This document shows positions 5,450 through 25,880 of a DNA stretch of 34,894 nt, piece after piece. The notes beneath the pieces are model-generated. The model ran no database searches and had not been told where the DNA came from. It worked only from the letters and a program-made list of their open reading frames with translations. Positions within the stretch are counted from its first letter, which is position 1; the number at the start of each line of letters is the position of its first letter. The stretch comes from a virus. The position numbers and the translations under genes are program-made. The stretch covers positions 1 through 34,894 of the IMG/VR virus record IMGVR_UViG_3300033145_001939. One strand, given 5' to 3'.

Positions 5450-6028
5450 TTACGTCTTTTTATTGGCAGAACTATCCCTCCAAAAACTCCACAAGTCGTT
5501 ATGAATTTTGTCTAGTTTATCTAGCACATAACGGTAATATCTAAACTCTTCTTGTTCCGCTACTAATCGCATAGTAATCGCTTCAAGTAAACTAATGTAT
5601 TTATCCTCATCAACCTTGTCGCGAAGTTTAGTGCAACCCCTAGTGTATTCGTGGCACAAAGTAGATAAATAACTGTTATCTTCTAAGTGCCAAAACTCCA
5701 CCAACCCCACACCTTTGGGCAATTCATTTTTACTAATTACACCTTTAGGTGCCGCAAATGCGAAATGGGTACAGTAAGGAAGATATGACTGCCATTTTTT
5801 ATCCGAAGTAAAATCCCTTCTGCAAGATTTAACTTCAAAAATTCTTATTTCACCTTTATTCCTGTTAATGCCCAACACATCAAATCTGATTGTATCTCTA
5901 TAAGGACTAAGTTCCTTTACTTTAACTGCGTAATTTTGCATCAGACTATCAAGAATATAGTTTATCATTTCATCAACTGTTGGAATTTTACTGAGTAATA
6001 ATGACTCGTTTGCATTCAATTTCACCAC
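5450..6028 (-). CDS. MmcB-like PD-(D/E)XK nuclease family protein
   Basis: The central block contains IRFDVLGIN, then IRIFEVKSCRRDFTSDKKW and YLPYCTHFAFAAPKGV. This matches the MmcB (PF06319-type) family of putative DNA-repair endonucleases: the Asp of FDV and the Glu and Lys of EVK form the PD-(D/E)XK active site, and the FTSDKKW...YCxxFxFAxP pattern is characteristic. Length 192 residues; the C-terminal 60 residues are helical and charged. The first codon is GTG at 6028, but a second GTG at 6025 sits better relative to GGGG. A phage nuclease of this kind may act on DNA in recombination or host DNA breakdown; the role here is inferred. Confidence 0.75.
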   Translation of the reverse strand: MVKLNANESLLLSKIPTVDEMINYILDSLMQNYAVKVKELSPYRDTIRFDVLGINRNKGEIRIFEVKSCRRDFTSDKKWQSYLPYCTHFAFAAPKGVISKNELPKGVGLVEFWHLEDNSYLSTLCHEYTRGCTKLRDKVDEDKYISLLEAITMRLVAEQEEFRYYRYVLDKLDKIHNDLWSFWRDSSANKKT

Positions 6029-15054: not shown

Positions 15055-15324
15055 TCAATCTGTAAACGGTTCTTTTTTGTAATATCTGTATTTGTTCTCA
15101 CCGATTTTGGAAAACTCATAATACCCGTGAAAGTAGCTGTTTGCATCTTTTGGGTCCCATTGTGCTATTGTTTGATTGCACGGCCTTAATACTTTTGTGC
15201 AGAAGTTTTTAACAAGAAACTCTGAACAATTTTCTACGGTTATTTCGTACTCATACTCACTGTCAGCATAAGCTCTTGGTTGGCCGAATTTTAATGTTTT
15301 TACCTTTATTGATAGTTCATTCAT
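15055..15324 (-). CDS. phage protein of unknown function (89 aa)
   Basis: The ATG at 15324 (MNELSIKVKTLKFGQ) has a GGGAG site and is preferred over an in-frame start at 15399, which lies inside the tRNA-like gene. The product looks like a beta-rich single domain (DSEYEYEITVEN, YFHGYYEFSKIGENKYRYY). No family recognised. It is the first gene after the tRNA-like element. Confidence 0.6.
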   Translation of the reverse strand: MNELSIKVKTLKFGQPRAYADSEYEYEITVENCSEFLVKNFCTKVLRPCNQTIAQWDPKDANSYFHGYYEFSKIGENKYRYYKKEPFTD

Positions 15325-15356
15325 CTTCTGTTCTCCCTTCTGTCGAGTTGTTATCA

Positions 15357-15478
15357 GGGCGGCGCCGGATTTGAACCGGCTTTCTTCGCTTTCCCGCATA
15401 TAGGCGGTATAGCCGATACTGCTTCCAGAGCGACCCTCGGCCTTCGCAGGGCCGCGTGTCCCACCACGCCGACCGCCC
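15357..15478 (-). tRNA. unusual 122-nt tRNA-like gene, anticodon loop reads GCG
   Basis: On the minus strand GGGCGGT pairs with GCCGCCC as an acceptor stem (extendable to 8 bp by a terminal G-U), and GCCGG-TTCAAAT-CCGGC is a perfect T arm. GCGTG-GTGGGA-CACGC can form a D arm, and GGCC-CTGCGAA-GGCC an anticodon arm with canonical C-T-NNN-A-A loop layout (anticodon GCG). About 56 bases separate the anticodon and T arms, far longer than any normal variable arm, and can fold as TCGCT/AGCGA enclosing small hairpins. Acceptor+T of 8+5 and the short D-to-anticodon junction recall selenocysteine-type tRNAs. No CCA is encoded. It fills exactly the gap between two genes. Confidence 0.6.
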
Positions 15479-15486
15479 CAAAATTC

Positions 15487-15648
15487 TCACAGCCCAAACG
15501 TATTGCCGATCATCCTGCACTGGTGCAGCAGCCATATTCCAATTAATCCAAGTCCCGCGATAAAAGCGAGAATCGCAAGCAGGTTCAAATAAACTTCAGC
15601 TGTCTTGGCATACAAGAGCCATTCTCCGGCTTTGATCAGCCTCTTCAT
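15487..15648 (-). CDS. small membrane protein (53 aa)
   Basis: ATG at 15648 overlaps the upstream stop as ATGA, with GGGGAGGGG before it. A short basic/amphipathic N-terminus (MKRLIKAGEWLLYAK) is followed by one long membrane segment (LNLLAILAFIAGLGLIGIWL) and a short tail. Function unknown; located just upstream of the tRNA-like gene. Confidence 0.65.
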   Translation of the reverse strand: MKRLIKAGEWLLYAKTAEVYLNLLAILAFIAGLGLIGIWLLHQCRMIGNTFGL

Positions 15649-16040
15649 GCCCCACCCCTCCCCTGCCACTGGTTAGGTGCCATGGTGTCGTATATGGTGC
15701 CGCATTCCAGGCAGCCAACTGTGATGCAATCTTTATCCGCATTCAGGTTTTCTTTTCTGGTCACAATGTACTTTGCATGGCCGTCCGGCATGCAACCGCA
15801 GCCGGGGCACTTGCTGTGCAGGCCTTTACCCTCAACTAACATAAAGTCAAAGCCGTAATCATTGGCAATTTTGACTGTATAGCTGTTGACAACAATCTTT
15901 TTGATTTTCAGTTTCTTCATGATCCAAATAATCTGCCTCTCGGCATCAACCCGGCTACATTTTCCATGGGCAAAGTTCTGCAGGATCCTGTGGATCAGCT
16001 GCCGGTCATCAGGTGTGGGAAACTGATATACTTTAGCCAT
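15645..16040 (-). CDS. zinc-ribbon phage protein of unknown function
   Basis: 131 residues. The C-terminal half holds CPGCGCM and, 40 residues later, CLECG, forming a probable zinc ribbon; the N-terminal half is helical (DDRQLIHRILQNFAHGKC). ATG at 16040 with GAGGAGG upstream. No specific family recognised; it may bind nucleic acid. Confidence 0.65.
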   Translation of the reverse strand: MAKVYQFPTPDDRQLIHRILQNFAHGKCSRVDAERQIIWIMKKLKIKKIVVNSYTVKIANDYGFDFMLVEGKGLHSKCPGCGCMPDGHAKYIVTRKENLNADKDCITVGCLECGTIYDTMAPNQWQGRGGA

Positions 16041-20465: not shown

Positions 20466-21499
20466 ATGAGGAACCCGAATGGCTACGGTTAGGCACGGTA
20501 TACAGGCTCAAAGGCCGCCGCCGCAGGCCCTGGATCGCTAGAGTAACAGTGGGCTGGACGCCGGAGGGCAAGCAAATACGCCAGACGATCGGCTATTTTG
20601 AATCCAAGACGGAAGGCATGGACGCTCTGGCGCTGCACAGGGTTAACCCGGTATCACCCAGGACAAATATAACTTTGGGCGAATTGTACAAAGAATGGTC
20701 CGAAAGTAAGTATAAGCATATATCCAAATCCACAGAAAACAACTACCGGGCTGCATGGAAATACATTCAGCGCTATGAAAAAGCAAAGTTCAAAGACCTG
20801 CGTACCTCCCACTGGCAAACCATAATAGACCAGTGCGCAGAAAATAACTTAAGCCAGTCCACGCTAAAAAAAATAAAAACCGTGGCTGTCATGCTGTACG
20901 AGTATGCTATGCAGAATGACATCGTGAACAAGAACTATGCCGAATTTATTACCCTGCCGAAAGAGAGCAGAAAGGAAAGGGAGACCTTCAGCGACATCGA
21001 CATCCAGACCATGTTTAACTATGCGGACACGGTGAAATGGGTAGACACTATTCTCATTATGATCTATTCCGGCATGCGCATATCTGAAATGCTGGAGCTT
21101 ACAAAGTTTAACGTAGACCTGGAAAAGGGGATCATAACCGGGGGAGCAAAAACTGAAGCAGGGAAAAACAGGATTATTCCTATACACCCGAAGATTATCC
21201 CCTTTATTAAAAAGTGGTATGCCAAAAATGGGGAAACTCTCATCTGCCGAGAAGACGGTAAAAAAATATCAGCTAAATATTACAGGGAAAAGAAGTATTA
21301 TCCCGCTCTTGAGCAACTGGGAATAAAGAAACTTACACCCCATGCCTGCAGGCATACTTTTGCAAGTTTAATGGCCCGGGCCAAAGTGGACACGCTTCAC
21401 ATTCAAAAAATTATCGGCCACAGCGACTATGCTTTTACTGCAAATAAATATACTCACCTGGAAATCGAAGAGCTTAAAAAAGCCATAAATAAGATATAG
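20466..21499 (+). pseudogene. int: tyrosine site-specific integrase, N-terminus frameshifted
   Basis: The catalytic part is complete: Arg in YSGMRISEMLEL, HACRHTFASLM, and the nucleophile Tyr in YAFTANKYTHL. The expected N-terminal arm-binding domain starts at ATG 20466 (MRNPNGYG), but a TAG at 20490-20492 follows. The rest of that domain (GTVYRLKGRRRRPWIARVTV) is in another frame, as if TTAGG (20489-20493) had been inserted. A GTG at 20549 opens an intact 316-residue frame that lacks the first strands of the arm-binding domain. attP lies directly downstream. A TTG at 20457 is another possible start. Confidence 0.85.
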
Positions 21500-21567: not shown

Positions 21568-21617
21568 TTTGACTCACATTCAAGAGGTCGCTGGTTCGAA
21601 ACCAGCCGTGCCCACCA
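21568..21617 (+). other. 3' half of tRNA-Val(CAC): crossover core of attP
   Basis: TTTGA-CTCACAT-TCAAG is an anticodon arm (anticodon CAC at 21575-21577), followed by AGGTC, a T arm GCTGG-TTCGAAA-CCAGC, acceptor strand CGTGCCC, discriminator A and CCA. There is no D arm or 5' acceptor strand upstream, so this is the 50-base part that restores a host tRNA-Val gene on integration. Confidence 0.88.
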
Positions 21618-21631
21618 TAAGAAACGCAAGG

Positions 21632-24697: not shown

Positions 24698-25880
24698 GAA
24701 CCACAATCTCCTTGCTGCCAATCCGCATGACAATTTTCCGGTCGTTGATAATACAGGTCACTGCCTGGCTGGCCGCATCCCAGTCCACCTGGCCGCCAGC
24801 AGCTTCAATTAAAACCCGGGCTGGAAGGAATGTGCGGCCATCTTTGATAAATGGGGCCACATCGGAGGTAATGATTTTGCCTTTAGACATGCGCTTATGC
24901 ACCTCATCCATATCAAAATTATTGCCGGGACAACTCTTGTAGGTAGCATATTTCCAGTGCGGCTCCACGTCCTCAACTTTAATGCCTGGGTACCTGGTCC
25001 GGATCTCGTTACACTTCTCTGCCACAAGCTGATAAATTTCCTTCGTGGGCGTGTCCTTGTCAAAGTTTCCGACCACGCACAGGCCGATACTCTTGTAGTT
25101 CATCCTCTGCTCTTTCACATGCGCCCCGGGGGTTTTCTCATCGCGCCCGGGAATCCAAAAATACCTATTCGAGACCTGTTCAAGTACCCAATGATACCCA
25201 ATATCGTTCCATCCCTTGACCTGCGTGTGGTAACGCTTGATGGCATTGAAGTCTTTCAAGATGATATTATCGTCGGTCAGAGAATGGTGGATGATAATTT
25301 TTTGAGGATTGTTCACGGTATCAACCTCCAAAGACATAAACCACTCTTTGATCTCCTCTCCCGGCGGATTTACTCGCCGGTAAAACTCATAGCTTCCCAC
25401 CTGCGCCTCCGGCGGGCCAAACAGAAACCGAAAGTCTTCAGCGAATATCTCCCTGGGCCGGTGGTAATACCCATACTGTTCCTCCCAGGTGATGCCCCGC
25501 AACTCCTTATATTTCGTCAGGTCTGGCACATAAAGAAGCTGCACCACATGGCCCAACTCGTGCGTAAACCACGACGGAAGGTATTCGGCAGGCTGGACAC
25601 CCAAAACTATGTGCGTATGGTAGGACTGGCCATGATAGCTCGCTCCCCAGCCATAGCTTTCTGACCACCTGCGCAACTGGTACGGAAATAGAAAAACCTC
25701 CACAGGGAAGCTCTGGACAGGGAACGATATTTTTTCTAGCGTATGTTCTACAAGTCCTACCGATGGAGCGGGGCCGCCTTCGTCAGCCATATAATTAGTT
25801 TGGCCTGCATAGTCAAACACGAAACCGCCCTCAAAGGGCTTGACCAAGGTTTTTGTGTGGTCAGGACCATGGATTTTCAT
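24690..25880 (-). CDS. triple-domain lytic enzyme: HELGH metallopeptidase + amidase_2 + copper-amine-oxidase-like domain
   Basis: 396 residues. Residues 1-190 carry HELGH (107-111) and a downstream REIFAEDFRFLFG Glu/Asp motif, as in gluzincin-type zinc peptidases. Residues about 195-330 are an N-acetylmuramoyl-L-alanine amidase (KIIIHHSLTDDN, SIGLCVVGNFDKD, PHWKYATYKSCPGNNF). The last 60 residues are a copper-amine-oxidase N-terminal-like domain (DGRTFLPARVLIEAAGGQVD), common on clostridial cell-wall proteins. No signal peptide; export would need the holin. GAGG precedes the ATG. The peptidase part is an unusual addition to a phage endolysin. Confidence 0.85.
   Translation of the reverse strand: MKIHGPDHTKTLVKPFEGGFVFDYAGQTNYMADEGGPAPSVGLVEHTLEKISFPVQSFPVEVFLFPYQLRRWSESYGWGASYHGQSYHTHIVLGVQPAEYLPSWFTHELGHVVQLLYVPDLTKYKELRGITWEEQYGYYHRPREIFAEDFRFLFGPPEAQVGSYEFYRRVNPPGEEIKEWFMSLEVDTVNNPQKIIIHHSLTDDNIILKDFNAIKRYHTQVKGWNDIGYHWVLEQVSNRYFWIPGRDEKTPGAHVKEQRMNYKSIGLCVVGNFDKDTPTKEIYQLVAEKCNEIRTRYPGIKVEDVEPHWKYATYKSCPGNNFDMDEVHKRMSKGKIITSDVAPFIKDGRTFLPARVLIEAAGGQVDWDAASQAVTCIINDRKIVMRIGSKEIVVHD

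Follow-up and report, generated by a model that had tools for sequence, protein, structure and literature searches.

The window analysed here, a stretch of 34,894 nt of viral DNA, carries a tRNA-like RNA element of 124 nt on the minus strand, whose RNA reads 5' to 3' from 15479 down to 15356 (Table 1). The initial annotation had described a 122-nt tRNA-like gene between two genes of the early operon. The element and its site were confirmed, both neighbouring genes being small and co-directional, and each end was moved outwards by one base. Downstream, the 89-aa gene has the ribosome-binding site GAAGGGAG. Together with both flanking early genes, the element lies upstream of SbcC-like, RecT and metallo-hydrolase genes. 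No CCA is encoded at the element. The 131-aa neighbour protein (15645-16040), used as a lead to close relatives, returned none from IMG/VR.

Table 1. Parts of the tRNA-like element and its flanking genes in the window
Feature	Position	Strand	Evidence or remark
Whole tRNA-like element	15356..15479	(-)	R1 model 67.1 bits, E 9.6e-14 (window within R1 training sequences)
Whole element, same ends	15356..15479	(-)	R2 model (other subtype only) 40.2 bits, E 3e-7
Acceptor-like stem, 5' strand GGGGCGGT	15472..15479	(-)	8/8 pairs with 15356-15363; covaries across family
Acceptor-like stem, 3' strand GCCGCCCT	15356..15363	(-)	Partner of GGGGCGGT
Linker CG, corresponding to tRNA positions 8-9	15470..15471	(-)	Conserved among family members
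D-arm GCGTG-GTGGGA-CACGC, 5 bp, near-invariant, loop type GYGGGA	15454..15469	(-)	Family alignment
Hypervariable insert, 73 nt, replacing anticodon arm and variable loop	15381..15453	(-)	Comparison with relatives
T-arm GCCGG-TTCAAAT-CCGGC, perfect, canonical 7-nt T-loop	15364..15380	(-)	Family alignment
Small upstream gene, co-directional, 60 aa	15487..15669	(-)	Stop 8 nt before element; no known family
Small downstream gene, co-directional, 89 aa from internal ATG	15055..15324	(-)	Start 31 nt past element; no known family

The acceptor stem, the perfect T arm and the possible 5-bp D arm named in the initial annotation are all present, as is the 8+5 acceptor/T arrangement. ARAGORN reported neither a tRNA nor a tmRNA in the window, and a search of the window with all Rfam 15 families at gathering thresholds gave no match. 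The Rfam tRNA (RF00005) and tRNA-Sec models found nothing at E<=10 on the element. When all Rfam matches up to E 10 were listed, the lone one was a cobalamin riboswitch (E 9.9) in the T-arm region, which was rejected as chance. The single-sequence folding energy of the element was not significant (z -1.5). Covariance models of known families thus give no score. Combined with unconserved stems in homologs, this would have refuted the initial annotation, but the stems of homologs are strongly conserved by covariation. The known models fail because the element belongs to a different RNA family.

By pattern scans and covariance models, the window element is a member of a large family of predicted phage RNAs. 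An exact 19-nt D-arm query of IMG/VR returned 10 contigs, all with the same layout and with acceptors that were unrelated yet self-complementary. Broader pattern scans of IMG/VR yielded well over 100 distinct members. Since each of two IMG/VR scans gave at least 120 contigs, the family must extend beyond the members collected here. Nearly all of these escape ARAGORN, and no Rfam family matches the member elements.

Pairing was assessed in two sets selected by D-arm/T-arm sequence with no acceptor criterion. In the set chosen by the D-arm core and T-loop only, 83.1% of the acceptor cells were paired, compared with 51.2% (sd 3.8) when 3' strands were exchanged among members. The second set comprised 107 distinct places, of which 102 closed with 6 or all 7 acceptor pairs; here 94.3% of the acceptor cells were paired (shuffled, 55.6%, sd 1.4), all four Watson-Crick types were present at acceptor pairs 1-7, and the T stem was 5/5 in every one. 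Alignments A2 and A3, covering both subtypes described below, showed 96.9% paired cells, with five measures all above 500/500 shuffles and a pairing signal that was lost when partners were slid. Their members had been pre-screened for acceptor pairing, so the 83.1% and 94.3% sets are the unbiased tests. D-stem pair 2 shows a compensatory switch from C-G to U-A. A scan demanding a 5-bp D stem, a T stem and an acceptor detected 83 elements in 1.59 Mb of collected loci; 0.8 Mb of shuffled sequence contained none. Kinship of the phages inflates member counts, and the neighbourhoods of members are mostly unrelated. The comparison of homologous phages for compensatory changes, proposed at the outset as a check, thus revealed the same architecture with compensatory substitutions in more than 100 viral contigs. 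Covariation demonstrates the fold. Judged by this comparative sequence evidence, which is decisive, the window element is real and beyond chance.

Across the family, acceptor, D and T arms follow one another in tRNA order, with GG in the D-loop and UC.A in the T-loop. The D-arm consensus GYGUG-GNNGGA-CACRC is almost invariant, and the CG linker was found in 81/83, 99/107 and 21/22 members of three sets. The acceptor stem usually has 7-9 bp and reaches 18; in most members the helix is of 8 bp rather than 7, the 8th pair exceeding chance across members, and several have 16-18 bp. Closing stems of this last length mark a subgroup (L118, L109, L121, L141, L177 and L096). Predicted acceptors of such lengths are unlike a tRNA end built for CCA and synthetases.

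The D-loop (GNNGGA) and the T-loop, which is either TTCRANT (7 nt) or TNTCRAGY (8 nt), define two subtypes. GYGGGA always occurs with the 7-nt T-loop (30/30, window included) and GANGGA always with the 8-nt T-loop (53/53). The coupling had no exception in 83/83 elements from a search that permitted both combinations, and it offers a clean natural experiment on how a tRNA elbow is constructed. The T stem of the 8-nt subtype is preceded by A in 107/107. The R2 model, built from the 8-nt subtype only, recovered the 7-nt element of the window at its exact ends, indicating that the two subtypes are one family. When R1 was run over 113 genomes of the host class, true copies scored 44.6-81.3 bits (window, 67.1 bits), and those lower-scoring matches that were checked (37-40 bits) were genuine host tRNA-Ala genes. 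Thus, the shape is tRNA-like and family members are distinct from tRNAs. D-loops of 7-8 nt, GTGGCGA and GACGGTGA, were observed in L181 and L182, from the class of the window's presumed host, so the family loop can exceed six nucleotides. A CsrA decoy, which would present ANGGA in a hairpin loop, is disfavoured: there is a single GGA, one copy resides in a phage of cyanobacteria, and the elbow accounts for the GG. In the mixed alignment, the invariant bases include the linker C, the D-loop G and GGA, and the T-loop U, C and A. In tRNA, the elbow contacts are G18-Psi55 and G19-C56 (PMC4810234), and the invariant loop bases of the family correspond to those forming these contacts, which predicts the same elbow.

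The anticodon arm with loop CTGCGAA and the 56-nt variable region of the initial annotation did not withstand comparison. The 5-bp form of this arm needs the last C of the D stem, and the lowest-energy fold pairs otherwise. Among relatives, an arm of 5 bp with a 7-nt loop could be formed with at least 4/5 pairs in 14/78 inserts, compared with 14.7 in shuffled inserts; the family has no conserved anticodon arm. Because the proposed arm is unsupported, the insert is counted as 73 nt, not 56 nt; a true long variable arm is likewise not supported.

Insert length in the family ranges from 13 to 172 nt and is usually 40-90 nt; the shortest inserts are of 13-23 nt (13 nt in L064). In 102 relatives of the 8-nt subtype, no insert position was conserved except the A beside the T stem. 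Inserts folded no better than flanking DNA (z -0.15 for both), leaving a structured payload unsupported in general, and their complementarity to their own locus did not exceed that of shuffled sequence. The 8-nt subtype has hardly any inserts below about 34 nt: one fitting a gap of 6-36 nt was found once, versus more than 100 longer ones. Phages L021 and L029 are otherwise unrelated; within 3 kb they resemble each other only in the element interior (70 nt, 98.6%), and their acceptor stems differ. L082/L096 and L139/L168 show a like pattern; in these pairs and in L021, L029 and L037, the interior is near-identical and the acceptor differs yet stays self-complementary. L003 and L108 have the insert start in common although their shells are of different subtypes. 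Interior-only sharing and the scarcity of short inserts indicate that the interior moves as one piece, by inheritance or by exchange, and that a minimum length is kept. With relaxed ARAGORN thresholds, tRNA-like sequence was seen inside the inserts of L176 (Pseudanabaena phage Pan3), L109, L130 and L098, which may represent a tRNA nested within a tRNA-like shell. No such nested sequence occurred in the unbiased set of 102.

Carriers are mostly phages, usually with one copy each, and the element is rare in genomes. A scan of 257 Gb of prokaryote genomes with the exact 7-nt pattern gave 19 matches. Three were real members, namely L038 (a Peptococcaceae MAG), L050 (Candidatus Syntrophopropionicum ammoniitolerans) and L055 (an Anaerolineae MAG); the other 16 of the 19 genome-contig matches lacked acceptor closure and were used as natural negatives. 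By our reading of the translations, L038 has a terminase-like gene and L050 has RecT-like and metallo-hydrolase genes akin to those of the window. The 8-nt type was present in 2/289 genomes of one alphaproteobacterial class, and a BLAST search of complete E. coli genomes with one member gave no copy. A plasmid copy adjoins a glycoside hydrolase 108 gene in Roseomonas mucosa p1-AD2. In L201, a Microvirga ossetica plasmid, the D-arm near 6000 is retained and the remainder is degenerate; this is probably a decayed copy. The microvirus match H3 (bajarodmic virus 346) was taken as chance, R2 finding nothing at the locus.

Copies that had escaped annotation occur in six cultured phages: Caulobacter phage DMCA, Komagataeibacter phages phiKX1 and phiKX2, Alcaligenes phage QDWS595, Pseudanabaena phage Pan3 and Acidovorax phage AP1. 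In DMCA, the element occupies 25553-25687. The family can therefore be tested at once in cultivable phages. In the Alcaligenes phage (L175), ARAGORN calls a permuted tmRNA and several tRNAs around the element (73-449 and nearby). Known RNAs lie close to two further members: in L097, a DUF3800-IX RNA (RF02968; 685-755, +) starts 17 nt downstream of the element at 564-668, and in L018, a skipping-rope RNA (RF02924; 1015-1122, -) is located about 200 nt upstream of the element near 700-810. We found no description of the family in open-access full texts, the only literature covered, or in Rfam 15. The family was previously unannotated; it is widespread and has been missed by standard tRNA finders and Rfam. 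It suggests that phages make tRNA look-alikes for work other than translation.

The window also contains a tRNA 3' half with CCA, GAGGTCGCTGGTTCGAAACCAGCCGTGCCCACCA, at 21583-21618 (+), after the integrase stop at 21499; R1 matches it weakly (11.5 bits). It is a likely attP core, and the window phage probably uses the 3' end of a host tRNA gene as its integration site.

A decoy or regulatory tRNA mimic, as put forward in the initial annotation, is still the best class of explanation. Within it, we favour, with a probability of roughly 0.45, a stand-alone RNA that acts in trans, its elbow and D-arm docking on a conserved host tRNA-binding factor and its insert serving as the phage-specific part. 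The family would then be an undescribed class of phage RNA in which the elbow is copied, the anticodon arm dropped and the inserts transferable, a natural scaffold addressing one such factor. The outer part folds as the upper half of a tRNA, with an acceptor of about 8 bp or longer on the 5-bp T-arm (a stack of about 13 bp) and a stiff D-arm whose loop GG would dock into the T-loop UC-R-A to form the elbow; the insert occupies the place of the lost anticodon arm. The RNA may be cut out of a phage transcript or stay part of it, and it may persist because of its tRNA-like fold. Elbow and invariant D-arm could then dock on the host factor, known elbow binders including RNase P, the ribosomal L1 stalk and tRNA modification enzymes, and the insert might alter the action or reach of the docked factor. 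The invariant D-arm, combined with the lack of a common neighbour gene, suggests a partner common to many hosts. Held-out detection, the tRNA-like shape, the invariant D-arm and the near-identical inserts in unrelated phages count for docking; against it count that inserts are not specially folded, that some are nearly absent (13 nt, L064), and that a pure decoy fits the same data. Should the elbow's docking partner prove to be a universal host factor, DNA phages would have a general route to tRNA processing, ribosomes and tRNA-centred defence.

Such a decoy, the shell of which would titrate an elbow-binding protein of the host or of a defence system, with the insert a tolerated spacer, is a possibility that we consider rather unlikely. 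In favour of a decoy, conservation is confined to the shell, inserts can be as short as 13-23 nt, and they have no special structure; however, insert length is held at about 40-90 nt in compact phage genomes, with short ones almost absent in the 8-nt subtype, and identical inserts are common to unrelated phages. More doubtful still is a natural tRNA scaffold in which the shell only stabilises the RNA and the insert, as a guide or sRNA, base-pairs with targets in phage or host. This would match the layout of the engineered tRNA scaffold (PMC3753655) and explain inserts that are unstructured on average and behave like transferable alleles, but a near-invariant D-arm sequence would be superfluous in a mere scaffold, inserts are no more complementary to their own locus than expected by chance, and some members have short inserts. 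That interiors move between unrelated phages with differing acceptor stems, and that some copies are near integrases, could point to a mobile DNA cassette or recombination site with an incidental resemblance to tRNA. Yet compensatory changes on G-U-tolerant pairs and the D-loop/T-loop coupling are RNA features, and most copies are away from integrases, making the cassette very improbable.

The position of the element is independent of the neighbouring genes, and this bears on a cis-acting role as an operon processing signal, leader or riboswitch for the downstream gene. The window copy sits between two operon genes with a ribosome-binding site 31 nt downstream, and in some relatives too such a site is close behind. 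By crude gene calls, however, the nearest downstream gene is co-directional in only 47/83, near a coin toss (upstream gene, 60/83), and within 120 nt in 20/83; the next gene is convergent in DMCA and Pan3, neighbours are not conserved, and in the related prophage L050 the copy lies elsewhere in the same recombination operon. With downstream-gene orientation near chance, cis-regulation is rejected as improbable. No neighbour protein family is shared by more than 5/94 loci, ruling out a common neighbour protein as the partner. A bacterial Y RNA of the YrlA type, tethering a Ro60/Rsr protein, has hardly any chance: YrlA RNAs do carry a tRNA-like domain (PMC7790460), but a TROVE (Ro60) protein is encoded in only 1/26 carriers, there 20 kb from the element, and no Rfam family matches. 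Equally slight is the chance of a decoding tRNA with an odd variable arm and the anticodon GCG, or of a relative of tRNA-Sec, both of which had been raised initially. The 8+5 acceptor/T stack, the long D stem with its short loop and the candidate loop CTGCGAA speak for them. Against them, neither the Rfam tRNA model nor ARAGORN finds a match, no anticodon arm is conserved, some inserts shrink to 13-23 nt and the window encodes no CCA, so that a decoding-tRNA identity is refuted for the family; for tRNA-Sec, there is also no UCA.

Compared with known RNAs, the family shares parts with several systems. In bacterial tRNA-Sec, an 8+5 acceptor/T stack is combined with a long D stem that carries a short loop. 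The family resembles tRNA-Sec (SelC) in its 8-bp acceptor and 5-bp T stem, stacked to 13 bp, and in its long D stem with a small loop; unlike tRNA-Sec, it has no anticodon arm, no UCA and no long variable arm of that kind, obtains no Rfam tRNA-Sec score and does not conserve the acceptor and discriminator. Like tmRNA, it keeps the upper half of a tRNA and replaces the anticodon arm with inserted sequence, but its D stem is real and invariant, and inserts of 13-172 nt are far too short for a tag frame and pseudoknots. A tmRNA identity was rejected, since no insert position is conserved and neither Rfam nor ARAGORN found a tmRNA in the window. In YrlA, the arms are permuted and the Ro stem stands in the anticodon place. 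The family has in common with YrlA a tRNA-like module with a predicted D-loop/T-loop contact, a probable role outside translation and occurrence in phages; it differs in the normal tRNA order of its arms and in having no Ro60 partner in 25/26 carriers. Decoding tRNA, tRNA-Sec, tmRNA and Y RNA each fail at least one tested defining feature. The elbow of D- and T-loop is also mimicked by the tRNA-like structures found in plant RNA viruses (TYMV; PMC4810234). Those are charged 3' ends of RNA genomes, whereas the phage elements lie as genes inside DNA genomes and conserve no acceptor identity. The engineered tRNA scaffold retains acceptor, T and D arms and takes up its insertion at the anticodon arm (PMC3753655). 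The family shares this layout, its acceptor, D and T arms being constant and foreign RNA standing at the anticodon position; unlike the scaffold, it is natural, with an almost invariant D-arm sequence and an acceptor of 8 bp or often longer. If our reading is true, phages would provide a natural precedent for the tRNA scaffold of biotechnology.
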